The notes beneath the pieces were generated by a model. The model was not told the origin of the DNA and did not search any database. It saw only the letters and a program-made list of their open reading frames with translations. The position numbers were made by a program, and so were the translations under genes. Below are positions 9,756 to 64,000 of a stretch of 64,000 nucleotides of DNA, piece after piece; position 1 is the stretch's first letter; the number at the start of each line of letters is the position of its first letter. Origin of the DNA: Niallia sp. Man26. GTDB taxonomy: Bacteria > Bacillota > Bacilli > Bacillales > Cytobacillaceae. The stretch lies in contig NZ_CP095745.1 of assembly GCF_022049065.2 (NCBI RefSeq), positions 62,001 to 126,000 of the forward strand, read 5' to 3'.

Positions 9756-9892
9756 TTTTCTTCCTCCCCTTTTATAGTAAATCATCATGTAATGATGCCA
9801 TTTATATTAGTGTTTTAATTTTCAGCAATTTATATCAGGTTTTCATTGATAAAGTATAAGCAAATGAAATAATTTCACTTACAAGCTTTATA

Positions 9893-9912
9893 ATATACCC
9901 CTATAGGTATAT
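9893..9912. promoter_or_regulatory. CstR-type operator, copy 1
   Basis: ATATACC-CCTATA-GGTATAT has the longest arms of the five copies. It lies 138 bp upstream of the repressor start and probably covers the main operon promoter. Confidence 0.75.
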
Positions 9913-9931
9913 TGTCAATAAAGAATTTTAT

Positions 9932-9959
9932 AAAAAAGACCGCAATTAGTTTAGCGGTC
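9932..9959 (-). terminator. terminator of the DUF302 gene
   Basis: GACCGC-N10-GCGGTC stem followed on the minus strand by TTTTTT. It separates the DUF302 gene from the sulfur operon promoter. Confidence 0.8.
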
Positions 9960-10039
9960 AAAAAGGATATATATGGCGTTAAGAAGTAATTCCATTTAAA
10001 ATGATACACATTTATCAATACATCTAATTAAACGCTCTT

Positions 10040-10392
10040 CTATACTTTAGCAAATAACTCCATGTCCTTATCATTTAGAAGGCTTATCAGTGCAGTTGGC
10101 CTAGGCATTTTATCTTTGTTTGTCCATTATCTTCATAAACAACAATTTTACAAGGTAAAAAGTATCCTGCCATTCCATTTCCGTTTAGCACCCTATGTGC
10201 TTCATCTGGATTGCATACTTCTAAAACTTTGAACTCTTTTTGAAATTCTAACCCTTTCTCTTTAAGCTTTTCCTTAATATCAAACATCCACAAAACACCA
10301 AAATTTTCTTCTTTTAAGCTTCCCTCTAACCTAGTTATAGTATAATTTACGCTTTTATTTGTAAGAACTGTATAATCAAACACACTAAACAC
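10040..10392 (-). pseudogene. DUF302 protein with a one-base frameshift near its end
   Basis: The reading frame from the ATG at 10392 gives a typical DUF302 protein (FDYTVLTNKSV…, GVLWMFDIKEKLKEKG, EVCNPDEAHRVL, GYFLPCKIVVYEDNG) but turns into KCLGQLH and stops at 10087. Shifting by one base in the A run at about 10113-10117 restores the usual ending: KMPRPTALISLLNDKDMELF and so on, to TAG at 10042-10040. The frame seems to lack one A. DUF302 proteins are small, often cytoplasmic, and frequently occur near sulfur or redox genes; function unknown. The change could be true decay or a homopolymer sequencing error. Confidence 0.75.
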
Positions 10393-10535
10393 TACCTTCT
10401 TTTCTTTAAATAATTGCTACAATATCTCTTACTTTTGTACTAATTATAAATTGACTTCTTTCAAATCTAATCTGAAGGACGATTGAATTTACAAATTGAC
10501 CTATAAAATAAATAGGAATCCTAAATAAGTTACTA

Positions 10536-11586
10536 TTAATACATACTATTATCTGCCTTCGGAGGTGATTCCATCCACCCATTTTCTATTAAGATATTAG
10601 CTCCATCGTCTACAAATATACCAAGGTTGACGAGACTTCTACCATACATCAATCCAACATCTCTTCGCCCATTTACCGCAATTGAATTGCCCAAAGCCCT
10701 AATTTTCATTGTAAACATGTCGACTTTATGAAATAACATAAGTTTATCTGAAAATGCGGGAAAGCTGGAAGTTGTCACTAAATGATCTAGAAAGGTCGGG
10801 GTTGGCAAGTTATCCCGATGAAATTTTTCCATATATTTCTTAACCGATTTATCAGTCATATCAAGACCTCTTTTAAACAATGCTTTAACCTTTTCCTCTC
10901 TTACCGTACGATAAAATCCCAACAATAATGCTCGGCTTGTTGTATTATTTTCAATGTTATCGTATAAGTGAGTTATTTCTAATGCATGTAAAGGTCTAAT
11001 ATCTCCAATAAAACCTTTTAAGTAGCTTTGTTTGTTTATAAAGTCATTGTTCTTTGGTGTTGGAATAGATGGTGGTTTGATTATTAATTTTTTACCCATT
11101 AGGACACTATTGATCTTGATCTGGCCTAAGAAGATACTGGTGCATTGATTACAATAAAATAAAGAATTCTCTTATATCCTCTCTCATGATTATAGGAACA
11201 GCAATAGCATATATACTAAGTCCTGTCTTTGCTACATACTTTAAATAATGCACATAAAATTCATCTTGGTATAAACGAGGAGCACCTAAGCTTGCATCTT
11301 CATCATTAAAGCCAGATGGTATAGGGAAATTTGCATCATTAAATATTTTTTCTATTCTTTGAATAAAATCCTTAGACAAGGATTGACCATTCTCTAACAA
11401 CATTCTTATATATTCATCTTCACAATGTTGTAGAAAATAGCTTATTATTTGAGAAGTCATACTGTTACCAATATAAGTGGCCCAAAGTTTACCCATTTCA
11501 ACTGATGTTAAAGAATTAGTTTCATCTATTTTAACCTGGTTTAATTCTAATGGTTTTAAAATATCCATAGGGTTTAAAACATTCAT
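10536..11586 (-). pseudogene. DUF3231 protein split by a one-base insertion
   Basis: The family protein has two similar halves of about 165 residues. The first half starts at ATG 11586 (LTSVEMGKLWATYIGNS…, NFPIPSGFNDEDASLGAPRLY) and stops at 11149 after REFFILL. Skipping one base in the TTTATTTTATTG stretch near 11154-11160 gives YCNQCTSIFLGQIKINSVLM and joins the second half (…KKLIIKPPSIPTP… HLVTTSSFPAFSDKLMLFH… NGWMESPPKADNSMY), which ends at 10536. The intact paralogue at 27829-28827 has the same layout. DUF3231 proteins occur in Bacillaceae and have no settled function. A restart at 11099 has no clear ribosome site. Confidence 0.75.
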
Positions 11587-40504: not shown

Positions 40505-41077
40505 TTGAATAATAATCAAGTTTTAATAAATAAAATAAAAGCTGGTGACAAAGAAGCCTTTAATGAACTGGTAGTTGATATTCTCCCTTCAGCTTATAAA
40601 ATGGCCTTATCTATCCTAAAATCTAAAGAATTTGCTGAAGAATCCTTACAGCTTACTTTGGAACTGGTTTATATAAGTATCCTTAAAAAGGACTTAGCAA
40701 TGACAAATTTTAAAGCCTGGTTTTTCAGAGTTCTGTACACTAAGTCTATTGATACTTATAGAAAATACAAACGGGAGCAAAATTTACAACTATTAAACGT
40801 AGATATTGATTTCTCTTACAATGAACCTTCTACTCAAGCGAAGATAATTGAATCGGAAAATAAAAGAGAAGTAATTAACCTCTTAAAGCAATTAAAAGAA
40901 GAAGAAAGAACACCTATTATTCTGTATTATTACGAGGGCTTCTCAATAACGGAAATTTCCTCTATTTTAGATATTAATAGCAACACAATAAAAACTAGAA
41001 TGGCAAGAGGTAGGAGAAAACTAAAGAAAATAATTAATGCGTTACAGTCCAAGGAGGGAGGATTCTATGAGCAGTAA
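40505..41077 (+). CDS. ECF-type RNA polymerase sigma factor
   Basis: 190 residues, TTG start after GGGAGGGAAATCC. Region 2 (DILPSAYKMALSILKSKEFAEE… NFKAWFFRVLYTKSIDTYRKY) and region 4 (LKEEERTPIILYYYEGFSITEISSIL… NTIKTRMARGRRKLKK) are complete, so it should direct transcription. It overlaps the anti-sigma gene by 11 bp, a common translational coupling. Closest by eye to the SigV/SigW/SigX type of envelope-stress sigma factors; the regulon could include the secreted proteins on both sides. Confidence 0.87.
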   Translation: MNNNQVLINKIKAGDKEAFNELVVDILPSAYKMALSILKSKEFAEESLQLTLELVYISILKKDLAMTNFKAWFFRVLYTKSIDTYRKYKREQNLQLLNVDIDFSYNEPSTQAKIIESENKREVINLLKQLKEEERTPIILYYYEGFSITEISSILDINSNTIKTRMARGRRKLKKIINALQSKEGGFYEQ

Positions 41078-41978
41078 TAAAAATGATAAATCAAACTCTG
41101 TTGATACTTCTGTTCCTAAATCCATACATGTATTTGTTGATTCTCTTCCAGAAAAATATATTAACGGGAATATAGATAAGAAACTTGAAAAAGAAATGGA
41201 ACTTGAATGGAAAAAATTCAATACAGGCTCCCAAAAAAATAAAAAACAAAAATTTTTGATAAGCATGGTTTCTGTTGCTTCTATCTTTATTATTTTTATT
41301 ATGCTAGGCTTTGTTTCACCAACTATGGCTAATATGATGACAAAAATACCTTTAATTAATATCTTATTTGAATCAGAATCTCCTCTTAATGAAGAAATAA
41401 TTACAGTATTAGAGGAGAATAATTATAAATGGGATGGAGTTAATATTTCTGTTGAAGATAAACTAGTTTCAATTAGTTTATTAGATGATAAGGAAAATAA
41501 TAAAGATAAAATGGAGGAAATAGAAAAAGTAACTAAAGAAATACTTAATCAAAGGGGATATAATGCCTATTCCGTAGCGGTTACAATTGATTCTCTAGAT
41601 AAAAATGTAGATACTAGCAAAAGTATAGACGGAAATATACGAATTATTGATGAAAATGTTATGAAGAACGACCCTGAAGTAAAATGGGCAACTACTTTTA
41701 TTCCAGCCATAAGTTCAGCATTAACTTCAAAAACTGAGTTAAAAGTAATTGGAATATCTCACTCTTACAAAGAAGGCAGAGTATACGTTGAGATATATAC
41801 TTCTTTATCATCCCTTAAGGCAGAGAGCAGTAAAGAAGTTGTAGAATCTATTAAGGAATCGATTAAAAGTTATTTAGAATCAGAAAAAGTCAACAAACTA
41901 TTAAATAATGATAAATATATTATAAATCTTTTCAATAAAGACAAAAGTGAAGAATCAACCATTATGGAGAAAGCATAA
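41067..41978 (+). CDS. membrane-bound anti-sigma factor, DUF4179/DUF4030-like
   Basis: 303 residues from ATG 41067, which has AAGGAGGGAGGATTCT in front and lies inside the sigma gene end. A cytoplasmic N-terminal part (about 1-65), one transmembrane helix (KFLISMVSVASIFIIFIMLG) and a large outer domain rich in Asp, Glu and Lys fit a sigma-holding membrane protein. There is no cysteine zinc motif (no ZAS). Signal unknown; release by regulated proteolysis is the usual mode. Confidence 0.78.
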   Translation: MSSNKNDKSNSVDTSVPKSIHVFVDSLPEKYINGNIDKKLEKEMELEWKKFNTGSQKNKKQKFLISMVSVASIFIIFIMLGFVSPTMANMMTKIPLINILFESESPLNEEIITVLEENNYKWDGVNISVEDKLVSISLLDDKENNKDKMEEIEKVTKEILNQRGYNAYSVAVTIDSLDKNVDTSKSIDGNIRIIDENVMKNDPEVKWATTFIPAISSALTSKTELKVIGISHSYKEGRVYVEIYTSLSSLKAESSKEVVESIKESIKSYLESEKVNKLLNNDKYIINLFNKDKSEESTIMEKA

Positions 41979-48297: not shown

Positions 48298-49167
48298 TTA
48301 CTTTAACAATTTCGTAAGTAACATACGGGAACCCATTGACCCTATATTTCCAGCTCCTCGGCCGATAGCACCCGCGCCACCACGTGCACTCCCTGATCCA
48401 TACCACATGTTTTTTAGGACAGAAGGTGACTTAATAATCAATGCTCCTGCACCAACCGCTAATAGAATGTTCCCCTGTGTAAAGATGATGTTGATGATTA
48501 ATGTAACAAGAAAAATCTTCACTAACAGGGATACTACAATGGATAGTAACTCTCTCCACCAAACCTGAAAGTAATTATTGTCATCCGCAAGCATTGAAAG
48601 CGCCACTGGCATAATAAGAATTTGCATAATAATATAATCAGCGTAAAAAACACATACGGAATAGAGAAACATAACAAAAACTACTACAAAAAATATTAAA
48701 ACGACAATTAAGACAAAACCAGATGCAGCAATCAAACTAGAGCCGGTTAATGCTGCAGACACCACCGCATATCCACCTTTTCCATCAAAATCCGTACCAG
48801 CTGCCGCAAAATAATTCGCTATGGGAAGGGCAATATCCATAAATAATAGTTTAATGAACCATGGAAGCACCAACATAGAGCCGGCACTTTTCACCACCCT
48901 TAATAGAATTTCATCTAAAGGATACTGTTGTGTTCCATTCTGTGTGTTAATGATGTATTCAATAATCTTATAGAGCGCAATAATGACCGCAAAAATGCCA
49001 GTAAACCATGCAAAAAAGGACATCGTATCATCCACGAAGTCCGACTTTGGTAAATCAAAAACAATTTTATTCATCATGGTTAAAATCCAGTTCATGAATT
49101 CTTCTACCCAACCATTAATGGTATCTTCTAGAAGTCCTTTTAACTCATCGCCAACCCAATCAAACAT
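48298..49167 (-). CDS. VirB6/TrbL-like multi-pass membrane protein
   Basis: 289 residues. An amphipathic N-terminus and about six hydrophobic segments (from residue 50 to 250) are followed by a Gly-rich tail (GSGSARGGAGAIGRGAGNIG). This is typical of Firmicute VirB6/TrbL (TraL/TrsL) channel proteins. It starts right after the virD4-like stop (ATG at 49167, stop of the previous gene at 49168), so translation is coupled. It would form part of the inner-membrane channel. Confidence 0.78.
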   Translation of the reverse strand: MFDWVGDELKGLLEDTINGWVEEFMNWILTMMNKIVFDLPKSDFVDDTMSFFAWFTGIFAVIIALYKIIEYIINTQNGTQQYPLDEILLRVVKSAGSMLVLPWFIKLLFMDIALPIANYFAAAGTDFDGKGGYAVVSAALTGSSLIAASGFVLIVVLIFFVVVFVMFLYSVCVFYADYIIMQILIMPVALSMLADDNNYFQVWWRELLSIVVSLLVKIFLVTLIINIIFTQGNILLAVGAGALIIKSPSVLKNMWYGSGSARGGAGAIGRGAGNIGSMGSRMLLTKLLK

Positions 49168-50724
49168 TTAAGCACCACCATCCTTCCTATCCTCCGCCAA
49201 ATCGTCTAAGGTACTTAGTGAGTTTTGAAATTGAGCTACTAAAACCTCTTGCTCTTCCATTGCTTGATATTCCAGATATTCTTCCTCGTTATATCCTTCT
49301 ACTTCAAACGATTCAGAAGTTTCAAAGACTGCTACATCTTTTTCGTACAGTTCTTTGGCTGTAGGACTTATTTGTCGTTTATATTCCATCTGTGACACTT
49401 CATATTCATCAACTAATCCTGGATACAGCTGAAATTGAATAGCCTTTTTCGCCTTAATCGGGTACTTACCAGCAATGATAACAATACTATCCTTTTCAGA
49501 CATCGTTAGGATTTCATCCGCATTCATTAAAGAACGTTGAGAATAAGAAAAGTTCGAACTACTAGATGAATTACCTGTTTTCCCTTTGGAAATAGAACTC
49601 CCACCGGTCTCCACTTTAATCGTTGCCTTTCCCATGAGATTACTAAAATAAGCTGCTGTTGTATCATTAACGTTACCTAAACAAATCTTTATGGCACAGT
49701 TACCAAGAATGGATTCTGCTTTATCTTTACCGTACTTATCCATTAACTGCGTATTATTCTGTAGAATAGTACAACAAGCAATTCTGTACCCACGACAGGT
49801 AGCCAAAAACTCTTCATAATTGTTGAATTTCCCTAAGTTAGGGAACTCATCTAAAAGAAAGACAGTAGGTACAGGCAATTTAGCTCCATTCTTATCTCCC
49901 AACAAATAAAGCTCCTGAAACATTTGAGTAAAGAATAGGTTTATCAGTCCTTCCCAAGTCGAATCCATCGTTGGAATTAACACATACAAGGCAACTTTCT
50001 TTATCCCAATATCCTCAAAGAAAAAATCATTACCACTTGTAAAGGAAGCTACTTCGTCATCTACATAATCACCAATAGTAGTTAATAAACTGATGATAAT
50101 ACTGGCCCTTGTTTTCTCCTGTGATTTCTTGAACCCTAACTCATAACTTCTTCTTGCTGGATGGCGTTTACCTAGTTCCATAAACTTTTCATCCAGTTCA
50201 CTTTCTCCGTCCTCATTTGCTTCCGGATCAAACTCCTGTAGAAAGTCTAAAATCCCTTCCATGTTTCTTTTATCCGGATGGAACTCCGATTTGGCATATA
50301 ATATTAACGCCTTTAATAAACCCAATTGAGCATTAAACCAGATATCTTTTCTTTTAGGATCATTCTTTGCGCTAACAATGGTATTTGCTACAGTTGTGGC
50401 ATCAAGATCTTTTCTTACATAGCCAAAAGGATTATAATGATCTGATATTGCCATATTCTTAAAGTTTACAACCCTAACCTCATACCCCTGAGCTTCTTTA
50501 ATTTTGGCAGTCTTTTCGTAGACCTCCCCTTTAGGATCAGTAACGACTATACTGCAGTCCGTGATATTAATCATGTTGGTTAAAACAAAGGATTGCGTTT
50601 TAAAGGAACCTGGCCCTCCTACCACATAATAGTTTCGATTAGCTAATTTACTCGTCTCGTGTTGGATTAACGCTTTGCCATCTTTAATTCCTATCACAAT
50701 CCCACTTGCATTAGTTGTAGCCAT
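49168..50724 (-). CDS. VirD4-type coupling protein, ATPase part
   Basis: 518 residues. The P-loop GGPGSFKT (36-43) has Phe where a Walker A motif normally has Gly before KT; Walker B is FLLDEFPNLG (289-298). VVTDPKGEVYEKTA and CTILQNNTQLMDKYG are also typical of VirD4/TraG proteins, which bring the relaxase-DNA complex to the channel. There is no transmembrane part. The 140-residue membrane protein encoded just upstream (stop and start overlap by one base) supplies it, as TraJ/TraK may do in pSK41. A C-terminal acidic tail follows. Confidence 0.87.
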   Translation of the reverse strand: MATTNASGIVIGIKDGKALIQHETSKLANRNYYVVGGPGSFKTQSFVLTNMINITDCSIVVTDPKGEVYEKTAKIKEAQGYEVRVVNFKNMAISDHYNPFGYVRKDLDATTVANTIVSAKNDPKRKDIWFNAQLGLLKALILYAKSEFHPDKRNMEGILDFLQEFDPEANEDGESELDEKFMELGKRHPARRSYELGFKKSQEKTRASIIISLLTTIGDYVDDEVASFTSGNDFFFEDIGIKKVALYVLIPTMDSTWEGLINLFFTQMFQELYLLGDKNGAKLPVPTVFLLDEFPNLGKFNNYEEFLATCRGYRIACCTILQNNTQLMDKYGKDKAESILGNCAIKICLGNVNDTTAAYFSNLMGKATIKVETGGSSISKGKTGNSSSSSNFSYSQRSLMNADEILTMSEKDSIVIIAGKYPIKAKKAIQFQLYPGLVDEYEVSQMEYKRQISPTAKELYEKDVAVFETSESFEVEGYNEEEYLEYQAMEEQEVLVAQFQNSLSTLDDLAEDRKDGGA

Positions 50725-51753: not shown

Positions 51754-52821
51754 CTATTTAACCACTCGGCCAAATCCAGCTAAATGCTGCTTCCAATAAC
51801 CTTGATTCCAGTTGGAGTATCCAATGCCACCATTGTTGGCGTCGTACATTCGTTTCTCATCCACATAGATGCCTACATGCGTAATAGAACTAGCTGGACG
51901 ACTAGGATTAGTTCCCTTGAAAAACACTAAGTCTCCAGGCTGTGGATCGGCTACTGGTATGGAATGGGCTTCCTGTTCAGCTGCCGTTCTGGGTAAATCA
52001 TACCCAAGCAATTTAAAGGCATATTGTACTAACCCACTACAATCAAAACCAATCTTCGGATTGGAACCAGCCCACGTATAAGACCAACCATCATATTTTT
52101 GTACTTCTGTCATTAAAGCTTGATAGGTTTCCGCACCTAAAGCTGAAGCATCGACATTTCCTATATCCCCTGTACCAGAACCTGGTGCAGAAAGATATTG
52201 CTGAATCAACATCACATAGTACATGTTCCCGTACGAATAACGAATGTTTCCATTGAAATCGGCCACGGGATTACTGTACTTCACCGTTTTTCCTCCTGCT
52301 TGTTTGCTAGAAAAAGCGCTGGCTAACTCAAAGGAATATTGTTTTCCGTTATCCTTTACATAATTATTAAAGGCTGATCCAAAATTATAGCTCTGGACAG
52401 GAGTCCAGAAATCTAATTCATGAGAGCGAGCATTTTGCACTACATTGGCTAAATGAGATACACCTGCATCAATAGAAACGATAGGATCACTAATGGAATT
52501 GGGAGGAAGACCAAGTGATTCCGAACTCTGCATCACATCTAATCCTTCACCCCCTGTTTCCACCATCATGATGGCAAGAATAACATCGACATACTCTGGT
52601 ATTCCGTATTTTTCGGCGTATTCATCTACTACAGGTTTATAGACTAAAACAGCTTCATTTACCTTGGCGGTTCCAGAATTCCCTTGATCTCCACCGACTA
52701 ACAACATGACCCCAATAACCATGACCATCAAAAAAGCTAGTACAATGAGTACTAGCTTCTTCCAATGTTTCTTCGCTTGTTGGGCTACCGTTAAAGCAAC
52801 TTTAATTGTTACTGCATCCAT
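51754..52821 (-). CDS. CwlT-like bifunctional cell-wall hydrolase
   Basis: 355 residues. An N-terminal membrane helix (about 21-43), a lysozyme-like domain (about 55-210) with E88 in MMVETGGEG, and an NlpC/P60 domain (about 230-355) with C261 in GFDCSGLVQYAF and H315 in SITHVGIYVDE. The same two-domain design is known from CwlT/Orf14 of ICEBs1 and Tn916 and TrsG of pGO1; it opens peptidoglycan locally for the mating channel. The ATG overlaps the stop of the upstream gene by one base. Confidence 0.9.
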   Translation of the reverse strand: MDAVTIKVALTVAQQAKKHWKKLVLIVLAFLMVMVIGVMLLVGGDQGNSGTAKVNEAVLVYKPVVDEYAEKYGIPEYVDVILAIMMVETGGEGLDVMQSSESLGLPPNSISDPIVSIDAGVSHLANVVQNARSHELDFWTPVQSYNFGSAFNNYVKDNGKQYSFELASAFSSKQAGGKTVKYSNPVADFNGNIRYSYGNMYYVMLIQQYLSAPGSGTGDIGNVDASALGAETYQALMTEVQKYDGWSYTWAGSNPKIGFDCSGLVQYAFKLLGYDLPRTAAEQEAHSIPVADPQPGDLVFFKGTNPSRPASSITHVGIYVDEKRMYDANNGGIGYSNWNQGYWKQHLAGFGRVVK

Positions 52822-54233: not shown

Positions 54234-56225
54234 TTAATATCCCTCAACTCGATTCAACTCATTTGTTAATTGACTAATTTCATTTGGAGAAAGGAGCACT
54301 TTATCCGACCAGTCTGGTATCTCTTTTGCACTTCTTCCTGTTTTTTCTTCGTACTTAGCTGGATTTAGAAGCCTTAATTCTTCTTCCGTTAACACGACCT
54401 TTAACAGGGCACGTTGAGAACCATAAATGATTAAGGCTTCCCCTTGTTTTTTTGCTTGAAGGAAGTGAATTTCTTTATCTGACAAAGGTATTTTTAATCG
54501 ATTAATAATTTGTTGAACTTCTCTAGGTTCAAATCCAAACATGACTTTGGTGTAACTATTCCCTACAATAGCTTCGCCAATGCCTCCAGAGGCATCTAGT
54601 AAATCTTGAATTTGCTGTGTCGTTACGGTCGCTCCAGCATTATACTTACGAAAACGTTTATACGCTTGGAAAAAAAAATCGGCACTTTCTGGATTCTTCA
54701 AAAGGAAATGAAACTCATCGCAATATAGTTCATCCGATTGCTTAACATCACTTGTGAATAGCTCCCACAGATAACTAAATGTATTTAGATACGCTGCTGC
54801 TTGTATTTCCTTCTCTGTTTGTAAAGGCTTTAAATTAAAGGAAATAATTTTGGCACTTAAATCTACATTCGTATAGCCATTAAACAGGGTACTTGAGCCA
54901 TAAACCATATCTTCTAAGATAAAACAGTATCGTTCAATCAGTTCATATTTCTTTGTATCTGTATTTTTCAATGTTTTTAATGACTGTAATAGGTCTTCTA
55001 AAATCGGCCAATCTGCATGGCCCATTGAATCCAAGTCTTTTTTCTCTCGGAAAGTTTTATACAGTTCCATCGAAACATTCGAAATGATAGACAATTGTAC
55101 TTGGTCCATATCCGCCATATTCACTTTATGGAAGCCTTTTAACCGGTTGACTTTCTGCCTGATTAAATTATCTACTTCTTTATCCGTTAATTGACGTTCT
55201 CTCATGACATAATCATCATCAGAATCTAAAGCTTGGGATAGGATTTCAAAAGGATTCATTCGGGTAGGACTAGCACTGGATAAATCAATAACTGTACCCC
55301 CAAAGGAAAGAACATCTTTGGAATACTCATCCTCCGGATCGATAATATAAATATTATCTTCACCTTCCGCCACTTTTCTAAAAACGTTACTTTTTTGATA
55401 GGTGGATTTCCCTCCTCCCGAAGTTCCTAAAACTATTTTGTTTCGATTAAGTGTCCTGCCTCGATCTTTATAATCAATGGCAATCCATGAGTTTGTTTCC
55501 TTGTTAATTCCTTCAATGGTTGCCCTTGGCGTTAAATCACAAATCTCATTATCATCGAAGGGAAAAAAAGAGCTAGCACTAACGGTATTCGTCATGGCGT
55601 ATGTGTACTCTTTCAAACTGTTTATCCCTAATGGAAAAGAAGAAAAATAGGCATCATCGATTCTTCTATAAGGAGTTATTGCTTTTAAATTGATTTTGAT
55701 TAATACTCGATTTAAACTCTCTTCGAGAGAACGTAATTCTGACTCTGACTGCGCCTGTAGTAAGATATAGGTGTAAAGATAGATAAAAGTACTCTTTTCA
55801 TCTAAAGACTGTTCCAGCTGCTTCTTAGCCGTATTTAATTCTCGTTTAATTTGTTCTCTTCTTTGATAATCTAATGTTTTTAAAAGCTCTGCTTCCTTGT
55901 TTTTGATGGTTTCATTATAGTGTCTATTCAAGACCTCACCATTGGCTGGCTCTAAATGCTGAGAAATCGTAATATTTCCTTTCAATCTCTTTAAAGGAGA
56001 CAACCAGTTACCTGTTGGCTCAGAAGGATAACTAAGGATTACATATGGCTTTATATAGTTCCCACTAGCCGCAATGTATTCTCGATTTAACTCAAATACA
56101 AAAGGATATCTACTTTCAATGACATCCTTATCGATTAAGCCGATAATCTGATTTTCTTCTTTTACTTTTGGTTCATTTTTCTGTTTTGTTCCAAATAACG
56201 CTGATAATAAACTCACTATCTGCAC
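54234..56225 (-). CDS. VirB4-type ATPase
   Basis: 663 residues. Walker A is GTSGGGKS (267-274), in the sequence RNKIVLGTSGGGKSTYQKSN; the Walker B region reads SDELYCDEFHFLL. TTQQIQDLLDASGGIGEAIVGNS and ALIIYGSQRALLKVVL fit the C-terminal half of VirB4/TraE/ConE. It powers assembly of, or transport through, the conjugation channel at the inner face of the membrane. 7 bp downstream of the TrsD-like gene. Canonical P-loop, unlike the coupling protein. Confidence 0.92.
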   Translation of the reverse strand: MQIVSLLSALFGTKQKNEPKVKEENQIIGLIDKDVIESRYPFVFELNREYIAASGNYIKPYVILSYPSEPTGNWLSPLKRLKGNITISQHLEPANGEVLNRHYNETIKNKEAELLKTLDYQRREQIKRELNTAKKQLEQSLDEKSTFIYLYTYILLQAQSESELRSLEESLNRVLIKINLKAITPYRRIDDAYFSSFPLGINSLKEYTYAMTNTVSASSFFPFDDNEICDLTPRATIEGINKETNSWIAIDYKDRGRTLNRNKIVLGTSGGGKSTYQKSNVFRKVAEGEDNIYIIDPEDEYSKDVLSFGGTVIDLSSASPTRMNPFEILSQALDSDDDYVMRERQLTDKEVDNLIRQKVNRLKGFHKVNMADMDQVQLSIISNVSMELYKTFREKKDLDSMGHADWPILEDLLQSLKTLKNTDTKKYELIERYCFILEDMVYGSSTLFNGYTNVDLSAKIISFNLKPLQTEKEIQAAAYLNTFSYLWELFTSDVKQSDELYCDEFHFLLKNPESADFFFQAYKRFRKYNAGATVTTQQIQDLLDASGGIGEAIVGNSYTKVMFGFEPREVQQIINRLKIPLSDKEIHFLQAKKQGEALIIYGSQRALLKVVLTEEELRLLNPAKYEEKTGRSAKEIPDWSDKVLLSPNEISQLTNELNRVEGY

Positions 56226-57313: not shown

Positions 57314-57667
57314 TTATTGGAATAAAGAATAAACCCAAGGTGCAATCCAGATAATCGCCGCAGATGCCGCCACAGCTGCCAGTACTCCACCAAGTGCTTT
57401 CCACATTTCATTTTTCACATGAGGATCATCAATGCTTGGCAAGTGTTTAACGATGATTTTCAATGCAGCTGCGATACCAACGATAACAACAATAGCTGTT
57501 AGAACGGTTTGAACGGCAGTGGCTGCGCTTTTCAATTTACTTTGAACACCACTTGTAGATTGTGCTGCAAAACTTGCATCAGGTAGTAGCATAAACAACA
57601 AGCACGCAAAAGCTACTAGAAAAATAGGTTTCCAATTGATATTCTCAAACTTTTTAATAGATAACAT
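57314..57667 (-). CDS. VirB2/TrbC-like pilin or channel protein
   Basis: 117 residues from ATG 57667, set by AAGGAGTTATTTATA; longer frames lack a ribosome site. A signal-like N-terminus (IFLVAFACLLFMLLPDASFAAQ) is followed by two hydrophobic helices (AVQTVLTAIVVIVGIAAALKI and ALGGVLAAVAASAAIIWIAP). Size and two-helix layout fit VirB2/TrbC or the TrsA-type proteins that open Gram-positive transfer operons. A terminator-like hairpin follows. Confidence 0.7.
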   Translation of the reverse strand: MLSIKKFENINWKPIFLVAFACLLFMLLPDASFAAQSTSGVQSKLKSAATAVQTVLTAIVVIVGIAAALKIIVKHLPSIDDPHVKNEMWKALGGVLAAVAASAAIIWIAPWVYSLFQ

Positions 57668-57737
57668 TATAAATAACTCCTTCTTAAAGCAAACACAGGC
57701 CTGCTTGTTTCCATTTTTATTTTTGTATTTTATATTT

Positions 57738-58703
57738 TTATAGTTGTAACTGTAATTCTTTTTTTTGTTTCCCTTCGACTTTGGGAGCATCTGTTTTCCC
57801 TTGTTGAAGACTGTTTTTCAGCTCATTATAGATAGATTGATAGACTTCAGGATGTTTGTTTTTTACAATATTCACAAACGTCTTTAATCCATCATTTTGT
57901 TTTTTTAGCTGTTTCATCAAAGCATCAGTTGGAACTTCATTTCCTCTCTTAAGAGAATCAGGTACAACTTCAGGAGCCTTTTTAAGGGCTGGGGAATCCT
58001 GTGTCTTGATGTATGTTTCAAACCTTTCTTTTGTCTTTATAGGTGTTGTCGTTTGTTCCATTTCACGGATGATTAAATCCTCCATATGAAAGCGATCTAC
58101 TACTTTACTATTTCCAAACCAATTTTCGTTTCTAGAATCAAGGAAGTGATATTCTAAGACCCCATCACCAGTATGTAAATCTACTGTTAACGCATGATGG
58201 TTGTCTGAATGTTGGTGTTCTTTCAACTCTAAAATTAAATTGCCACCCTTTTCATATTCCTCCACTACTGTCGAAGGAATATAATCACGCTTTCCGTTCA
58301 ATTCTTCTATATAGGGAAAAAGAACTTGTTTTACAGACTCCTTAGAATATCTATAATCAGGTTCTTTTTTTGACACTTCGTTTGAATCCTTCTCCATACT
58401 GCCTGTTTTTTCAATAATAGAATATTTCCTATCTAACGTATCAGTAAAGCCTTTAATTTTGTCATTGATTCTTTGTACTTTTGAAGCAACTGTATTATGA
58501 ATATCCAACTTGATATCATGGACTTTATTCTCAATGCCTGAACGCACTTGCTCTTTTGTATCCAACATTATTTGCTTTAAACCATCTGTTAAATTCGTGA
58601 AGACTTTTTTCAATCTTCCAACCAGGTTCATCTCTAGCGTAGGAATATCATTCAAGGATGCTTTTTCCAGCTTCTCCGTGAATTCTGTCAAAAGCTTTTC
58701 CAT
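57738..58703 (-). CDS. unknown cytoplasmic protein at the head of the transfer genes
   Basis: 321 residues, no signal or membrane helix. The N-terminal third is amphipathic helix (LLTEFTEKLEKASLNDIPTL…, VQRINDKIKGFTDTLDRKY), then a mixed domain (about 115-225, with VDLHTGDGVLEYHFLDSRN) and a Lys/Gln-rich end. Similar unknown proteins (for example DUF6674-type) occur on Bacillus plasmids, but I cannot confirm the match. It lies 13 bp after a 42-residue gene. Confidence 0.5.
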   Translation of the reverse strand: MEKLLTEFTEKLEKASLNDIPTLEMNLVGRLKKVFTNLTDGLKQIMLDTKEQVRSGIENKVHDIKLDIHNTVASKVQRINDKIKGFTDTLDRKYSIIEKTGSMEKDSNEVSKKEPDYRYSKESVKQVLFPYIEELNGKRDYIPSTVVEEYEKGGNLILELKEHQHSDNHHALTVDLHTGDGVLEYHFLDSRNENWFGNSKVVDRFHMEDLIIREMEQTTTPIKTKERFETYIKTQDSPALKKAPEVVPDSLKRGNEVPTDALMKQLKKQNDGLKTFVNIVKNKHPEVYQSIYNELKNSLQQGKTDAPKVEGKQKKELQLQL

Positions 58704-58920: not shown

Positions 58921-59970
58921 TTATCCCTTATAATTTTTCATTATTTTTCTTTGTCGCCATATAATGAAGACAAGTACAAGAAGTACGGTAAAAGCTCCTA
59001 TCAATGTACCTACAAGCAACCCGTTAGAATTGCTTTCCACCACCATTTTTTCATCCTCGAATGTTTGTTTTTTTACCTGGTCTACTTCTTTATTCGCAAT
59101 AGAAAAATCAAAAGATTTTTTGCTACTGTTGTCTTCAAAAGTAGTTTCTACAGATGCTTTGTAATCCCCACTGGATAAATCTCCATTCCAAGGGATTTCT
59201 AAAGTTGTCTTTGATTTTGGAGCTAACTGCAAGTTTGTTTCAAAATCAAAGACCTTTGAAGCATCTTTTAAAACAGTAATATTGATTTTTCCTCCATCTA
59301 CTAAAGCAGCAATATCATTTTCCACATCAATTTTTAAATTACCGTCTTCTTGTCGCACAGCTTTAACAAAATTCTTAGCTAATGATTTGTTATCAATCGC
59401 AGCTGGCTTTCCTATCGTAAATTCAATAGGTAGTATTTTCTCAATTTCATAATTGGTTTCAATTGTCCCTGTCTGTTTATCCTCCTTTCTAATACTCGTA
59501 GATTCTCCAGATTGTTTTTCTTTAAAAGAAATAGCACCTAAATAGGTGCCATCTTTTAAATCATTCGTGTCTAAACGAAAGGGAATAACCTTCTCTTCGT
59601 TAGCATTAAGTTCTACCGTTTCATCAATACTCAAATGGGAGACCACATCATAACCAACCTCAGTATATTGTCCACTGTTCAATTCTTTAACAAACCCAAT
59701 AGAACCGCCACTTTCTGTATTGGCATTTAAAGGTAGTGCACTTAGTGTAATAGCTTTATTGGAATCATTGCGAATACGAAAAGAGAAAGAATAATTGCTG
59801 TCTTCTTTTAGTGATAATTGAAATCGGCCTGTTTGATTTGGATTTTGATTATCGTCGTAGATAGGAGTTATGATGTAATTACTTCCTATTGTTTGATCGT
59901 TGTCTTTGGCAAAAGAAATGGAAGGAATACAGAGAAGTAAAATGGCTATTATTAACGTTATTTTTTTCAT
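58921..59970 (-). CDS. WxL-cluster surface protein, DUF916/DUF3324
   Basis: 349 residues from ATG 59970 (AGGGTGACAATAGAT in front). Signal peptide (LIIAILLLCIPSISFAK), DUF916-like domain with NYIITPIYDDNQNPNQTGRF and FSFRIRNDSNKAITLSALPL, then a DUF3324-like domain and a C-terminal transmembrane helix (LVGTLIGAFTVLLVLVFIIW) with a basic end (RQRKIMKNYKG). These proteins anchor WxL proteins to the cell wall and membrane. It follows two WxL-type genes, as in enterococcal and Listeria clusters. Confidence 0.82.
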   Translation of the reverse strand: MKKITLIIAILLLCIPSISFAKDNDQTIGSNYIITPIYDDNQNPNQTGRFQLSLKEDSNYSFSFRIRNDSNKAITLSALPLNANTESGGSIGFVKELNSGQYTEVGYDVVSHLSIDETVELNANEEKVIPFRLDTNDLKDGTYLGAISFKEKQSGESTSIRKEDKQTGTIETNYEIEKILPIEFTIGKPAAIDNKSLAKNFVKAVRQEDGNLKIDVENDIAALVDGGKINITVLKDASKVFDFETNLQLAPKSKTTLEIPWNGDLSSGDYKASVETTFEDNSSKKSFDFSIANKEVDQVKKQTFEDEKMVVESNSNGLLVGTLIGAFTVLLVLVFIIWRQRKIMKNYKG

Positions 59971-59991
59971 ATCTATTGTCACCCTTTCTTT

Positions 59992-60016
59992 AAGCCAGAA
60001 GTATCGCTCCTGGCTT
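59992..60016 (-). terminator. weak hairpin between WxL and DUF916 genes
   Basis: AAGCCAG / CTGGCTT stem; only a weak T tract. Confidence 0.35.
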
Positions 60017-60027
60017 TCTATTATGTA

Positions 60028-60639
60028 TTACAGCCCTTGAACCACACTAAATGTAATTGTCGTTTCATAAGGTGTCGGAGTTGTTGGATAGTTGATTAAA
60101 TCGACCATGTTTTTGTTTGGTGTTATCGTTGTCGTTATTTCGTTTTCTGCATTTATAGTGGTTATTCCTGATTGTGTTCCACTGTATAGCGTGGCAGTCA
60201 TCCTATCTATTACTGCACCTGCTACCGTTCTTGTTATATTACTATTGGAGATTGTTTCAGAAGTCACACGATACTGAATGGTATTTCCAACGATTGCTGA
60301 AGTTCCTGATTTAAACCCTCCAGCTGGTGCCTTCTCTGTTAAAGGAGTGGCAGATAACTTCAATGACCAGGAACTATTAGTCCCTGTAAGATTTTCTACT
60401 TTAATTTCGGGAAACTTTGCTAACACTATTTTTTGTGTTTCTGCACTTACAGTTGCTAACGGATTTAATATTTGTGGATTACTAATGGTTAAATAGATTC
60501 CTTGGCTTTGCACACCAGCTGTCGCAGTAGTTACATATTGCTCGGCAGCATCCACTTTGGAATGAAAAAAGAAGAAACATAGAATAAAAGAAGACAAAAG
60601 AGAAATGACGCTCTTTTGTCTCATACTAGCCTTACGCAT
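60028..60639 (-). CDS. WxL-domain surface protein
   Basis: 203 residues. Signal peptide (SVISLLSSFILCFFFFHSKVDA), then a beta-rich domain with the WxL motif WSL in NSSWSLKLSATPL and the C-terminal YETTITFSVVQGL. WxL domains bind peptidoglycan and occur as secreted or displayed proteins. About 20 kDa, so the protein is hardly more than the WxL domain. Its ATG overlaps the upstream stop by one base. It is a tandem paralogue of the protein at 60639-61259; the two share AGGFKSGT-type and VVQGL segments. Confidence 0.78.
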   Translation of the reverse strand: MRKASMRQKSVISLLSSFILCFFFFHSKVDAAEQYVTTATAGVQSQGIYLTISNPQILNPLATVSAETQKIVLAKFPEIKVENLTGTNSSWSLKLSATPLTEKAPAGGFKSGTSAIVGNTIQYRVTSETISNSNITRTVAGAVIDRMTATLYSGTQSGITTINAENEITTTITPNKNMVDLINYPTTPTPYETTITFSVVQGL

Positions 60640-61259
60640 TACAGACCCTGCACTACGCTTAGTTTAACTGTTGTTTCATAAGGAGTTGGACCACCTGGAT
60701 AGTTAACCGGATCAACTGTTACCTTATTTGGCGCAACCGTAACAGAGATTTCATTGTCTGCAGTTATGCTTGTAGAGCCACCCGCATTGCTTCCGTAATA
60801 TAAAGTAGTGGATGTATCTCCCGCAAGGTTAATAGCCGTGAATCCACCAAATTGTACGTTTGGATTTGAAATAGTAGACGAGTTTGTTTTCAATACCATG
60901 GAATTAAAAGGCTTTAATGCTGTTGTTCCCGATTTGAAACCGCCAGATGGTGTTTTCTCCGTTAATTCCGTCGCACTCACTTTCAAAGAAAAATTGGAAC
61001 CCGTACCCGATAAATCTTCCAAATTAATAGTAGGAATTTTTCCAATGATTACTTTTTGAGTAGCCGTACCCACTGTAACTGTTGGGTTTAGGTCTTGAGG
61101 ACTTGTTAAGGAAACATTATATCCCCCACTTTGAATACCAGTAGAAGCCTTTGTTGTTGCTTGTTCTGCCGCAAATGTGGCATTTCCTCCACCAAATAGT
61201 AACCCTAATGACATAATTCCTGTTAATGCTAAAGCGCCAATCTTCTTATTCTTTTTCAT
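60639..61259 (-). CDS. WxL-type surface protein, Trp replaced
   Basis: 206 residues from ATG 61259, set by GAGGGGAAC; an ATG at 61316 is less likely. Signal peptide (IGALALTGIMSLGLLFGGGN… TFAAEQ) and the same domain as the next gene: FSLKVSATELTEKTPSGGFK and TPYETTVKLSVVQGL. The WxL position reads FSL, so it is a WxL relative with Phe for Trp. It is the first of a surface-protein operon, right after the twin 50-residue genes. Confidence 0.72.
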   Translation of the reverse strand: MKKNKKIGALALTGIMSLGLLFGGGNATFAAEQATTKASTGIQSGGYNVSLTSPQDLNPTVTVGTATQKVIIGKIPTINLEDLSGTGSNFSLKVSATELTEKTPSGGFKSGTTALKPFNSMVLKTNSSTISNPNVQFGGFTAINLAGDTSTTLYYGSNAGGSTSITADNEISVTVAPNKVTVDPVNYPGGPTPYETTVKLSVVQGL

Positions 61260-61290
61260 TTTTTTGTTCCCCTCGTAAGTTAGTTTTGTT

Positions 61291-61443
61291 TTATCCAATT
61301 GTGTTAATTTTGTCATTCATGACGCCGACTAAAGACTGGAATACTTCGGGTAGTGCCACTACTAAAATACTTCCGATTGCTACCCCGATAATTAGTGAAT
61401 AAATACCATTGATACTACGATCTGCATTCGCTTCAAAACTCAT
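61291..61443 (-). CDS. 50-residue hydrophobic protein, twin B
   Basis: MSFEANADRSINGIYSLI… one hydrophobic helix (about 15-36) … VFQSLVGVMNDKINTIG. AAAGGATG precedes the ATG at 61443. Nearly the same as the protein at 61476-61628 (about five residues differ). No cysteine, and no Glu5 after the N-terminal Gly as in Flp pilins. It sits between TadE-like and WxL genes and may be the pilin-like or structural subunit. Confidence 0.65.
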   Translation of the reverse strand: MSFEANADRSINGIYSLIIGVAIGSILVVALPEVFQSLVGVMNDKINTIG

Positions 61444-61475
61444 TAAAAAAAACATCCTTTCATTTTTAGAATTAA

Positions 61476-61628
61476 TTATCCGATTGTGTTAATTTTTTCG
61501 TTCATAACATCCACTAGAGATTGGAATACTTCGGGTAATGCAACCATAAGAATACTTCCGATTGCTACCCCAATGATTAAAGAGTAAATACCATTGATAC
61601 TACGGTCAGAATTCGCTTCAAAACTCAT
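61476..61628 (-). CDS. 50-residue hydrophobic protein, twin A
   Basis: ATG 61628 with AAGGAGGTGATAGTT, an unusually strong ribosome site. MSFEANSDRSINGIYSLI… IGSILMVALPEVFQSLV… NEKINTIG. Tandem duplicate of 61291-61443. A strong translation signal and duplication fit a protein needed in many copies, such as a pilin. Processing by a prepilin peptidase cannot be judged; none is visible. Confidence 0.65.
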   Translation of the reverse strand: MSFEANSDRSINGIYSLIIGVAIGSILMVALPEVFQSLVDVMNEKINTIG

Positions 61629-61651
61629 AACTATCACCTCCTTAAAAGACA

Positions 61652-61678
61652 AAAAACACTATCATAGTTAGTGTTTTC
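61652..61678 (-). terminator. terminator after the 45-residue gene
   Basis: AAAACACTA-N7-TAGTGTTTT followed by TT on the minus strand, 10 bp after the stop of the 45-residue gene, in front of the twin genes. Confidence 0.7.
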
Positions 61679-61686
61679 AATAAGAT

Positions 61687-61824
61687 TTATTTAAATAAAA
61701 TGGCCTTATAGTCAAGCTTTGCGAACTCTTTGAAAACCTCCATATAATGAAAGGAAAATTCCAAGAATACCGCTAAGACTGCAACTCCAGCTATCATTAA
61801 CATATTTCTAACACCGTTTTGCAA
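61687..61824 (-). CDS. 45-residue hydrophobic protein
   Basis: TTG start at 61824 (GAGGTGG 5 bp upstream; GTG at 61833 overlaps that site). One hydrophobic helix (MLMIAGVAVLAVFLEFSF) and a basic end (KLDYKAILFK). It begins inside the gap after the TadE-like stop and looks like a third small membrane subunit of the Tad-like set. Not recognised. Confidence 0.5.
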   Translation of the reverse strand: MQNGVRNMLMIAGVAVLAVFLEFSFHYMEVFKEFAKLDYKAILFK

Positions 61825-61834
61825 CGGAGCCACC

Positions 61835-62200
61835 TCACTTAACCATACTTATTGCACTTCCCCTAGATGTGACCAATTGATCTGGCAAGTCGAAGAAAAA
61901 CACTTCAACGTTTCCTGTAACGATATACTCTACTTCTAATCCATATGCTTGCTTCTCAGAACCAGATAAACTCGTCACTTCGAATTTGCCATCATAGAAC
62001 TTATTGGAATACTCCTGAATGTTTTGAACCGATGTTGCCGTTAATCCACCATTTCGCTCAATCTGTCCATCTATATAGGTTTTAAAGTCAGATGATTGAA
62101 TATAACTCACAAAAAATATGGTTATCGCCATTAGAAACATCACAAAGGCCATTAACATAATCTGTAGTGAAAACTCGCCAGCTGCATCTTCAGCATACAT
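61835..62200 (-). CDS. TadE-like / DUF4320-like membrane protein
   Basis: 121 residues. A short GEFSLQIMLMAFVMFLMAITIFF helix near the N-terminus is followed by an outer domain (TYIDGQIERNGGLTATSVQNI… LEVEYIVTGNVEVFFF). Pseudopilins of Tad systems (TadE/TadF) have this layout, and DUF4320 proteins occur near them in Firmicutes. It follows the TadC-like gene by 22 bp. A minor-pilin role is inferred. Confidence 0.55.
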   Translation of the reverse strand: MYAEDAAGEFSLQIMLMAFVMFLMAITIFFVSYIQSSDFKTYIDGQIERNGGLTATSVQNIQEYSNKFYDGKFEVTSLSGSEKQAYGLEVEYIVTGNVEVFFFDLPDQLVTSRGSAISMVK

Positions 62201-62222
62201 GTACTATAATCCCCCCCTTCTC

Positions 62223-62981
62223 TTAAAGGTTGTTCATATTTCGACTAAAGATATCAAAGGCAGCACCAGCCATATAACCAACCATTGGAATGAAGTTCAC
62301 CATGGTAATTTTGGTTGGGTACATATAAAAGGTTCTTTCTTTGTGTTTTCGAATATCTTCGATACCCCTCATCATTGCTTTTCTTGCGATATCGCTCAAC
62401 TCATCAATGATACTGCTGTCACTTGTATGGTTCGTGTAGTTATAAAGTGATGTCATAAACGTTCGAGCCTCATCCGTTCCACCAGCAGCTACTTCCGCAA
62501 AATGCATATACGGTTGAACACTTTGAGGGTTTTCGGTGATATCAATTATTAAACGATAGAGATTATTTTTGAACTCTCCCTCCTCTAAGCGATTTAACAG
62601 CTTACGAAACGTTTTAATAACGGAATCATTGGAATCCTGTAAATAGGTAACGATTAAACGCTGGAAAACATACCAGGATATTTGCTTCTCATACACGAGA
62701 CCGTTATATTCGTGTTTTTCCTTGGTATACGCATTTCTCCATGAATAAACGAAAAATATGACTCCCAACAAGGATAACCAAGGGCTAATAAGTAAGGCTG
62801 GAATAGCAGCTGCCAAAGTAGATATCAGCGCATTTCTCATCCTTCGCTTTTGGAAGAGATAAAACTCATATTCTCCAAACCCTGACTTTTCCACCATCTC
62901 ATATAAATCTTGTTCCGCAACCAGATGCCAAAACCGTTGCATCCTGGTTCTTTCAATCTGTATCTCTACTACTTCCTCCAC
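62223..62981 (-). CDS. TadC/GspF-like membrane protein
   Basis: 252 residues. Two hydrophobic segments near 50-85 and one near 225-245 (MVNFIPMVGYMAGAAFDIF) flank a cytoplasmic helical part (YEKQISWYVFQRLIVTYLQD… FRKLLNRLEEGEFKNNLY). This fits the platform protein TadC of Tad/Flp pilus machines (GspF domain). It overlaps the TadB-like gene by 13 bp, so translation is coupled. Similarity to TadC is by layout and context. Confidence 0.6.
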   Translation of the reverse strand: MEEVVEIQIERTRMQRFWHLVAEQDLYEMVEKSGFGEYEFYLFQKRRMRNALISTLAAAIPALLISPWLSLLGVIFFVYSWRNAYTKEKHEYNGLVYEKQISWYVFQRLIVTYLQDSNDSVIKTFRKLLNRLEEGEFKNNLYRLIIDITENPQSVQPYMHFAEVAAGGTDEARTFMTSLYNYTNHTSDSSIIDELSDIARKAMMRGIEDIRKHKERTFYMYPTKITMVNFIPMVGYMAGAAFDIFSRNMNNL

Positions 62982-63796
62982 ATTTTCACCTCCATCACTT
63001 CATCATCGGCCAAATTCATTTGAAGAGAATGAAAATAGAAACATAAAGCACCGATAAGAATAGCACTACAACCCCACCCAATGACGTTATGCGCATAATA
63101 AAGTAAATAAAAATCAAAACCTCGGGCGAAAGTCAAAATCCCCACTACGATTAAAGGATAAATGGTAGTAGCTTTAAATTGTCTTTTATACAAAACCTTA
63201 TTGTTTATAAACATGTTTCGTTGTTCTAACACATCATTGTGCCAAGTCTTTAATTCTTTAATCTTCTTAATATCTGTTCTTCCTTCTAAGGAAGCAGTCA
63301 CCAGGTTGTCCATAAAAAGACCAAAAACGAAGTCACTCTTGTATTTATCCTTTAATAAATTAAAGGCTGTTTGCACTTGTTTGGGAGTAGCATCCATTAA
63401 ATCAATGATAAGCTGATCTAATTCTTTTTTTAGTTCACCTTTTGTAATTTCTTTAGCACACCATCTTAACGTCGTTACCACCGTTTCGTCTGGATTCGCT
63501 AATAAGCCAGTCATGGTGTTGATAAACCTATTTCTCTGAATCATGGATTCCTGTTGATAGATACGCTCCACACTAATTTTCATTAGTATAATGAATCCAT
63601 AAGATACCCCCACAATTCCAGCAATTATGGACAGCCACCAATAATAGGTAAGAACATAAATACTGAAGAAACTGACCATAAAAGGAACCACTAACGCCGT
63701 AAAGATTTCCTTTTTCATTAAGGGATTTCCATAGGCCGTACGATAAGCATTTAGCTCATCGATACTCATTACTTTGCTTTCACCGAATAACTTCAT
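62969..63796 (-). CDS. TadB/GspF-like membrane protein
   Basis: 275 residues. Two N-terminal hydrophobic segments (about 28-75), a helical cytoplasmic domain (RNRFINTMTGLLANPDETVV… AFNLLKDKYKSDFVFGLF) and two C-terminal hydrophobic segments. This is the TadB-type platform layout. It overlaps the upstream gene by four bases (ATGA). The pair TadB-TadC after an ATPase-like gene is the usual Tad order. Confidence 0.6.
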   Translation of the reverse strand: MKLFGESKVMSIDELNAYRTAYGNPLMKKEIFTALVVPFMVSFFSIYVLTYYWWLSIIAGIVGVSYGFIILMKISVERIYQQESMIQRNRFINTMTGLLANPDETVVTTLRWCAKEITKGELKKELDQLIIDLMDATPKQVQTAFNLLKDKYKSDFVFGLFMDNLVTASLEGRTDIKKIKELKTWHNDVLEQRNMFINNKVLYKRQFKATTIYPLIVVGILTFARGFDFYLLYYAHNVIGWGCSAILIGALCFYFHSLQMNLADDEVMEVKMWRK

Positions 63797-64000
63797 GCTT
63801 CCTCATCCCTTTTAAAGCCTTCAAAGTCAGAACCTAATTCATGTATGCGTTCAAAGAAGTCTTTACTTAGTTCTCCATACGTAACTTCTAATGTTCCATC
63901 TTTCTTCATTCTTTGCTTAAAGACTGTTGTGGCCGTGTGATCCCCATGAAACTCTACAATCTCGCCTAGGAAACGTCTGCCATTAATCTTTTTCAAATGA
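63793..64000 (-). CDS. C-terminal end of a gene, probably the Tad ATPase (TadA/CpaF)
   Basis: The frame enters from the right edge; a TTG at 63996 has no ribosome site and is unlikely to be the start. The 67 visible residues (GRRFLGEIVEFHGDHTATTVF… RIHELGSDFEGFKRDEEA) show no ATPase motif, which would lie upstream. The order before tadB-tadC suggests a CpaF/TadA or VirB11-like ATPase; this is only positional evidence. Confidence 0.4.
   Translation of the reverse strand, partial: HLKKINGRRFLGEIVEFHGDHTATTVFKQRMKKDGTLEVTYGELSKDFFERIHELGSDFEGFKRDEEA

Follow-up and report, generated by a model that had tools for sequence, protein, structure and literature searches.

Gene organization of the locus

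The 64,000-nucleotide window analyzed here comprises bases 62001-126000 of contig C3 (NZ_CP095745.1; 233,972 bp), a plasmid in the 5.7 Mb genome of Niallia sp. Man26. Its right-hand end carries genes resembling a Tad pilus machine and WxL surface proteins, referred to below as the module, which lead into the genes of a type IV secretion system (T4SS). According to the list of open reading frames (ORFs) of the window, both groups are located on the minus strand and arranged head to tail, as described in a first-pass annotation of the sequence. Read 5' to 3', the block starts with a 5'-truncated adhesin frame (L006:7649-10078; L, G, and C numbers denote loci, genomes, and contigs), followed by genes for a 63-amino-acid (aa) membrane protein, a 129-aa TadF-like protein, a 403-aa ATPase, TadB-like and TadC-like proteins, a 121-aa TadE-like protein, a 48-aa membrane protein, two near-identical tiny proteins, two WxL-like proteins, a WxL-interacting protein (WxLIP), two ORFs without an assigned family (54 and 321 aa, between the WxL genes and the CagC/VirB2 gene), CagC/VirB2, a PrgI-like protein (21.1 bits, below the cut-off of 27), VirB4, lysozyme/NlpC, VirD4, and TrbL. 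The adhesin gene and two further module genes (63 and 129 aa) lie beyond the window edge. The three tiny proteins of the window are real ORFs, and those at 61476-61628 and 61291-61443 represent a family kept in relatives.

The probable ATPase end recorded earlier at the window edge proved to be the C-terminus of a complete T2SSE/CpaF-like ATPase, encoded just past the edge (C3:125793-127004). The upstream ATPase gene on which the idea of a module had been made to depend is present, and the module stands. A MobA/MobL relaxase (PF03389) is also encoded on C3 (143408-144076); taken with the domain matches in the window, contig C3 carries a relaxase, a coupling protein, VirB4, and a cell-wall hydrolase. 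The features of the window are listed in Table 1.

Table 1. Module and T4SS features in the window
Feature	Position	Strand	Evidence and remarks
TadA/CpaF-like ATPase, C-terminal 68 codons of 403 aa	63793..64000	-	PF00437, 63.8 bits; tree
TadB-like platform protein, 275 aa	62969..63796	-	Profile comparison; structure model
TadC-like platform protein, 252 aa	62223..62981	-	hhalign to true TadC, 93.9%; 26/26 loci
TadE-like minor-pilin candidate, 121 aa	61835..62200	-	AlphaFold2 (AF2) layout; 25/26 loci; some relatives named DUF4320
48-aa membrane protein	61687..61833	-	Like 44-aa ORFs, by eye, in Terribacillus and Virgibacillus plasmids
Tiny pilin-like protein 1	61476..61628	-	No leader; N-x-D-R motif, hydrophobic stretch, tail
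Tiny pilin-like protein 2	61291..61443	-	Near copy of tiny protein 1
WxL-like secreted protein 1, 225 aa	60639..61316	-	Aligns with Pfam-recognised WxL proteins of related plasmids
WxL-like secreted protein 2, 203 aa	60028..60639	-	Aligns with WxL proteins; no direct Pfam match
WxLIP (DUF916/DUF3324), 353 aa	58921..59982	-	PF06030, 55.7 bits; PF11797, 45.8 bits
321-aa protein without family	57738..58703	-	ORFs of 317-622 aa at the equivalent place in three relatives
CagC/VirB2-like T4SS protein	57314..57790	-	PF16943, 65.1 bits
VirB4-like ATPase	54234..56225	-	PF19044, 60.4 bits
Lysozyme-like and NlpC/P60 cell-wall hydrolase (VirB1-like)	51754..52821	-	PF13702, PF00877
VirD4-like coupling protein	49168..50724	-	PF02534, 416 bits
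TrbL/VirB6-like protein	48298..49167	-	PF19597, 64.3 bits

Motor and platform proteins and their genomic context

In the TadA tree, the plasmid ATPases formed one group (support 100/99), with the Tad loci L074 (91/90) and L067 (89/82) as the nearest. In topology tests, a clade with Tad was not rejected (p 0.315) and a clade with VirB11 was rejected (approximately unbiased test, p 0.003); the tree included six VirB11 rows, and its deep order is unsure, with four long branches. The best NCBIfam model for the window ATPase was TadA (TIGR03819) with 116.9 bits, below the cut-off of 373, while the VirB11 model gave 92.1 bits, also below its cut-off. The TadB-like and TadC-like names given earlier were upheld by profile comparison with the true TadB (hhalign probability of 98.1%) and the true TadC (93.9%), and the TadB structure model resembles GspF/PilC; in single-profile matches at E 0.001, the plasmid TadB and TadC profiles each reached just 2 of 17 true Tad loci. 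The window TadB-like protein is 96% identical to a protein of Niallia taxi. On sequence grounds, a Tad-type motor and platform can be firmly assigned to the plasmid, as can their link with its conjugation genes. Separately, the ATPase, TadB, and TadC of L067 and L074, which belong to other genomes, are the nearest to those of the plasmid module and might point to a source lineage.

In total, 26 distinct loci, selected by TadA or TadB, were examined with purpose-built profiles. TadA, TadB, and TadC were found at all of them, TadF-like and TadE-like proteins at 25 each, and a TIE-type adhesin adjoins the module at 24 (exceptions L049 and L060). T4SS genes were present within the fetched stretch at 24 loci, while at L055 and L058 the contig stops right after the module. 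For the Lactococcus plasmid pJM4A (L049), the T4SS evidence is a weak VirB4 match of 33 bits; the coupling protein PF02534 was detected in 10 of 11 plasmid records, pJM4A being the exception. Because TadA-B-C and their partners recur at 26 loci, the arrangement is not a chance one. A constant separation of the homologues from conjugation genes, which the first-pass annotation had named as fatal to its idea, was likewise not observed: the homologues lie with conjugation genes, pJM4A being a partial exception. A search of 72,556 plasmid records yielded TadB in 140 (Bacillus 51, Listeria 45, Enterococcus 31, Lactococcus 5, and others), of which 94 were typed as conjugative, 27 as mobilizable, and 19 as non-mobilizable. 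Among genomes, it was matched in 3 of 105 Enterococcaceae and in at least 2 of 398 Bacilli, the genome of strain Man26 included; the latter count is a lower bound, with up to six candidates scored per genome.

The module hosts include Bacillales, Enterococcus, and Paraclostridium, and three conjugation backbones were distinguished. In the first (the window plasmid, Terribacillus, Virgibacillus, and B. subtilis PJ-7), the module of a MobQ relaxase plasmid is followed by CagC and VirB4-type genes; the relaxase of the window plasmid is the PF03389 protein. In the second (pLS20, B. velezensis, Paraclostridium, Enterococcus, and Listeria pLM5578), VirD4 and 'pLS20_p028' genes follow the module. The third is a chromosomal element of genome G422 (L094/L095, C1:905000-944800), where the module and a TIE gene that includes a thioester domain are placed between the relaxase and TcpE/AAA_10. 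This element encodes an integrase, an ImmA-type protease (PF06114), a helix-turn-helix repressor, an FtsK-like protein, a Rep_trans relaxase, TcpE, an AAA_10 ATPase, and lysozyme/NlpC, a gene set that we take to be that of ICEBs1. Since the module and the adhesin move together between unlike transfer systems, they are best read as one working unit.

Small proteins, adhesin, and WxL proteins

An alignment of 13 tiny proteins from eight loci contained, as its sole invariant columns, N-x-D-R near the start, followed by a hydrophobic stretch and a tail. By this pattern, the tiny proteins occur at 18 of 25 scanned loci in one to three copies each, and by their own profile at 22 of 26 (missed at L049, L052, L094, and L097); at L094, two short ORFs (17290 and 17468) resemble them by eye although the profile misses them. 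A Shine-Dalgarno-like match, sought within 20 bases of the ATG that opens the conserved part, was found at 26 of 27 tiny genes (18 loci) with at least four bases and at 22 of 27 with at least five, compared with 11.7% and 5.2%, respectively, of the full set of 15,879 ATGs in these loci. Since the ribosome site supports the ATG opening the conserved part, the commonest tiny proteins have no leader peptide; neither the type III leader of Flp nor Glu5/Tyr6 was detected in them. In length and layout they are like the mature Flp pilin, while all sequence matches were non-significant. The AF2 model of the TadE-like protein (pLDDT 84) comprises a helix at residues 2-50, a helix at 55-69, and three strands, a pilin-like layout.

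In an alignment of 23 TIE sequences (numbered by the pLS20 stop-to-stop frame), the best-conserved part was the C-terminal tail, residues 751-791, with a mean pairwise identity of 0.49; the values were 0.45 for residues 701-750 and 401-450 and 0.28-0.31 for residues 51-250 (thioester domain region). The tail is also kept in the Enterococcus adhesins L050, L052, L096, and L097, of which L050 carries SpaA domains, and it may serve as a docking tail. The thioester domain exceeded the Pfam cut-off in four of five other adhesins (L040, L044, L061, and L094) and was slightly under it in the E. faecium adhesin L050 (20.7 versus 22). In the window plasmid, the adhesin frame matches the TIE profile from position 167 only and, in tblastn with the longer, thioester domain-containing copy from the related plasmid of genome G006, from frame residue 282 only; the absent N-terminal part was not found in C3:62001-177900. 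Because this part is absent, the adhesin copy of the window plasmid may be impaired, or the plasmid may rely on another adhesin. A drop in G+C from 0.37 to 0.30 was observed at the junction near 10000, by the adhesin frame. In the E. faecium plasmid (L050:10530-12526), an IS21-type element is located between two stretches that both match the adhesin of the module. In pLS20, TIE (p34) is required for efficient mating, mainly in liquid; the authors regard the way it is anchored as an open question and describe neither a sortase signal nor a known wall-binding domain in it (PMC8092201; here and below, statements from the literature refer to passages of the cited papers). It was located in the wall fraction and in surface foci (PMC11730352).

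The DUF916/DUF3324 anchor of the first-pass annotation is confirmed, as both domains of WxLIP exceed the Pfam cut-offs; it is the single match in the genome. The two proteins called WxL-type are 46% identical to each other and fall below the Pfam WxL model PF13731, yet they align with WxL proteins of Terribacillus and Listeria plasmids, and two aligned relatives pass the cut-off of 25 with 55.5 and 28.4 bits. WxLIP was found at only 6 of 26 module loci and is for this reason regarded as accessory, not core. Likewise, the WxL genes are movable accessories, since their position varies from downstream of the hydrolase in Terribacillus to upstream of TIE in Listeria.

Proposed function and alternative explanations

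The module shares with the Tad pilus a Tad-type ATPase, TadB and TadC matching in order and profiles, and short subunits with one hydrophobic stretch, encoded mostly after TadC/TadE. It differs in having no TadV on 11 plasmids, in tiny proteins without a leader or Glu5, in pilin-like parts without significant homology, and in its regular partners, the TIE adhesin and the T4SS. The gene lists of the block include no TadZ or RcpC/CpaB, for which no targeted profile search was made on plasmids. Judged by its sequences, the module is a Tad-derived variant of the known type IV filament kind, apparently recruited for Gram-positive conjugation. By analogy, its nearest functional parallel appears to be the thin type IV pilus of IncI plasmids (R64 and TP114), which has a PilV tip adhesin and its own peptidase and is likewise a second type IV filament-type machine beside the T4SS of a conjugative plasmid. 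The IncI pilus, however, is Gram-negative and has a shufflon, whereas the module is Gram-positive and Tad-derived, with a thioester adhesin. The IncI pilus promotes pair formation in broth (PMC9045228, PMC12857230), where it is needed, unlike on solid medium (PMC9045228). The WxL/WxLIP clusters are similar to the window in that WxLIP lies beside two WxL-like proteins, and the module differs from them in the rarity of WxLIP and in its varied operon positions. PrgB of pCF10 is also a plasmid-encoded surface adhesin that forms mating pairs, and we know of no Tad-like machine accompanying it. In contrast to the module's adhesin, PrgB-type adhesins are of LPXTG type and sortase-anchored (PMC8092201, PMC12857230).

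The pLS20 operon carries the same module, with TIE, a TadF-like protein, TadA, TadB, TadC, a TadE-like protein, and three tiny ORFs, and differs from the window in having no WxLIP in the block. Its ATPase gene, tagged tadA in the sequence record (9839-11047), is called 'virB11' in the literature (PMC11730352); gene order suggests that both names denote one gene, as does the fact that the record tables list no second ATPase of this kind. Given this label and the VirB11 homologue reported for pAW63 (PMC9673590), the ATPase itself is not new. Of the module, the pLS20 passages name only TIE and 'virB11' and state that sex pili are neither encoded nor known, and reviews describe Gram-positive conjugation as lacking pili (PMC8470214, PMC6540685). 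A 2011 survey recorded Gram-positive tad loci, some without a prepilin-like gene, and in the passages cited made no link to conjugative plasmids (PMC3244431). The dissection of Lactococcus pNP40 concerned a different gene set (PMC8194271). Tad pili of Myxococcus bear exchangeable tips (PMC12075869), and CpaF powers both extension and retraction (PMC11300603).

The most likely explanation, and a somewhat probable one, is that the locus forms a Tad-derived mating-pair module, mobile among Gram-positive conjugative elements, that displays the TIE adhesin. TadA, TadB, and TadC would move small subunits across the membrane and so assemble a filament or a short pseudopilus, in which the tiny leaderless proteins would be the major components and the TadE-like and TadF-like proteins the minor ones. 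Exported by Sec, TIE would dock on this structure via its C-terminal tail, remain at the cell wall or further out, and bond to the recipient through its thioester domain. If TadA also reverses, as reported for CpaF, the mating pair could be drawn together, and the T4SS channel would open afterwards; WxL and WxLIP may form an optional wall-binding coat. The filament, the tip position of TIE, and leaderless assembly are putative. The surface device proposed at first to bring mating cells together remains the best explanation, with its WxL part reduced to an accessory, and the single adhesins then ascribed to Gram-positive plasmids are here revised to an adhesin plus a Tad-like machine, with the TIE gene outside the window. 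A Tad-type motor and platform are present in pLS20 itself and in Listeria and E. faecium plasmids, despite the literature on conjugation without pili. The proposed module may account both for the capture of recipients by Gram-positive donors in liquid and for the retention of TIE on the wall, the latter a question posed in PMC8092201. A bolder version remains tentative: a retractile, thioester-tipped Gram-positive conjugative pilus whose pilins, leaderless and about 50 residues long, are ready for assembly as made and need no prepilin peptidase. A reduced Tad machine would build it, TIE would be the Sec-exported tip, fixed through its conserved C-terminal tail, and the module would be swapped among MobQ/CagC plasmids, pLS20-type plasmids, and ICEBs1-like elements.

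Several observations weigh against a Tad-derived mating-pair module. No significant profile match was obtained with hhalign for the tiny proteins to Flp (4.1%), the TadE-like protein to TadE (0.9%), or the TadF-like protein to TadE/F (9.5%), and the latter scored higher with CpaB (21.2%); the TadE-like model had no clear match in the PDB comparison. The tiny gene precedes TadF/TadA at L050, L063, L065, and L096 and follows TadE elsewhere. The pLS20 ATPase scores almost equally with the NCBIfam VirB11 (116.4 bits) and TadA (120.2 bits) models, both below cut-off. In Lactococcus pJM4A, TadABC occur without TIE, TadE, TadF, and tiny proteins, and the complete record contains no PF02534. The adhesin of the window plasmid has no signal peptide and no thioester domain match, and the start of TIE is a Sec signal peptide, not a pilin start (PMC8092201). 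The literature passages mention no filament, pilin processing, or mutant phenotype for the Tad-like genes. Finally, a prepilin peptidase was sought, as the first-pass annotation had proposed, but none (TadV, A24) was found on the 11 plasmid records searched, and an ordinary Tad pilus needs one. The genome of strain Man26 has one prepilin peptidase match, on C1. All 11 module genomes of one set have one or two each (the G105 and G021 matches are identical, probably representing one genome), and so do all four module genomes of a second set, two of them below the curated cut-off (G106 is in both sets). Since the peptidase is missing from the plasmids and present in the host genomes, a host enzyme might act in trans, or none is needed; the absence of a leader in the tiny proteins favours the latter.

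Rather doubtful as an alternative is a device for secretion or anchoring that makes no long filament; TadA-B-C would assemble with the small proteins into a short pseudopilus that exports or fastens TIE (and WxL where present) at the wall. Such a device would accord with the regular position of TIE beside the module, its conserved tail, and the very small, leaderless pilin-like proteins, as well as with the wall fraction and foci of pLS20 TIE (PMC11730352) and its lack of a sortase signal or known wall-binding domain (PMC8092201). However, TIE already has its own Sec signal peptide, and the tiny proteins, present in one to three copies and preceded by clear Shine-Dalgarno sites, resemble major subunits, for which a short device would have less need. 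It is unlikely that the ATPase and TadB/TadC form a VirB11-like power unit integral to the T4SS channel, with no separate appendage. The shared operon with adjoining VirB2/VirB4/VirD4 genes and the VirB11 names used for pLS20 (PMC11730352) and pAW63 (PMC9673590) are in agreement with such a unit. So are the sub-cut-off matches of both ATPases to the NCBIfam VirB11 model. Nevertheless, the clade with the six VirB11 proteins was rejected, and TadB and TadC accompany the ATPase at every locus, while to our knowledge VirB11 has no neighbouring TadB/TadC. Moreover, one module serves three unlike T4SS backbones, including the ICEBs1-like one, a type normally without such an ATPase as far as we know. 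A role in host adhesion or biofilm, with the module merely riding with the conjugation operon, is highly improbable: it would fit with WxL proteins and Tad pili being surface-colonisation factors, whereas T4SS genes were found at 24 of 26 loci (23 without the weak Lactococcus match) on three backbones. In addition, the TIE of pLS20 acts in conjugation (PMC8092201).

Some neighbouring genes were recorded separately. Directly upstream of the operon, a probable two-component system was recognized by eye (L006:10217-12173; a 458-aa kinase and a 195-aa regulator), and a similarly sized pair is annotated upstream of the equivalent operon of B. subtilis PJ-7 (L041:6701-8630), a possible transfer regulator. 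At 40505-41978 of the window, a sigma-factor-like protein precedes what may, by eye, be an anti-sigma membrane protein; the pair is flanked by the end of the transfer operon that carries the topoisomerase and by a transposase-like fragment. The second plasmid-sized contig of the genome (C4, 232 kb) contains, judged by size and order, a separate, fuller Tad-like cluster (L008 6315-17569) with CpaB-like and TadZ-like proteins, TadA (507 aa), TadB (334 aa), TadC (305 aa), two small pseudopilin-like proteins, and a 1377-aa repeat protein. The relatives G008, G010, and G044 have ATPases similar in length to the TadA of this cluster (weak matches).

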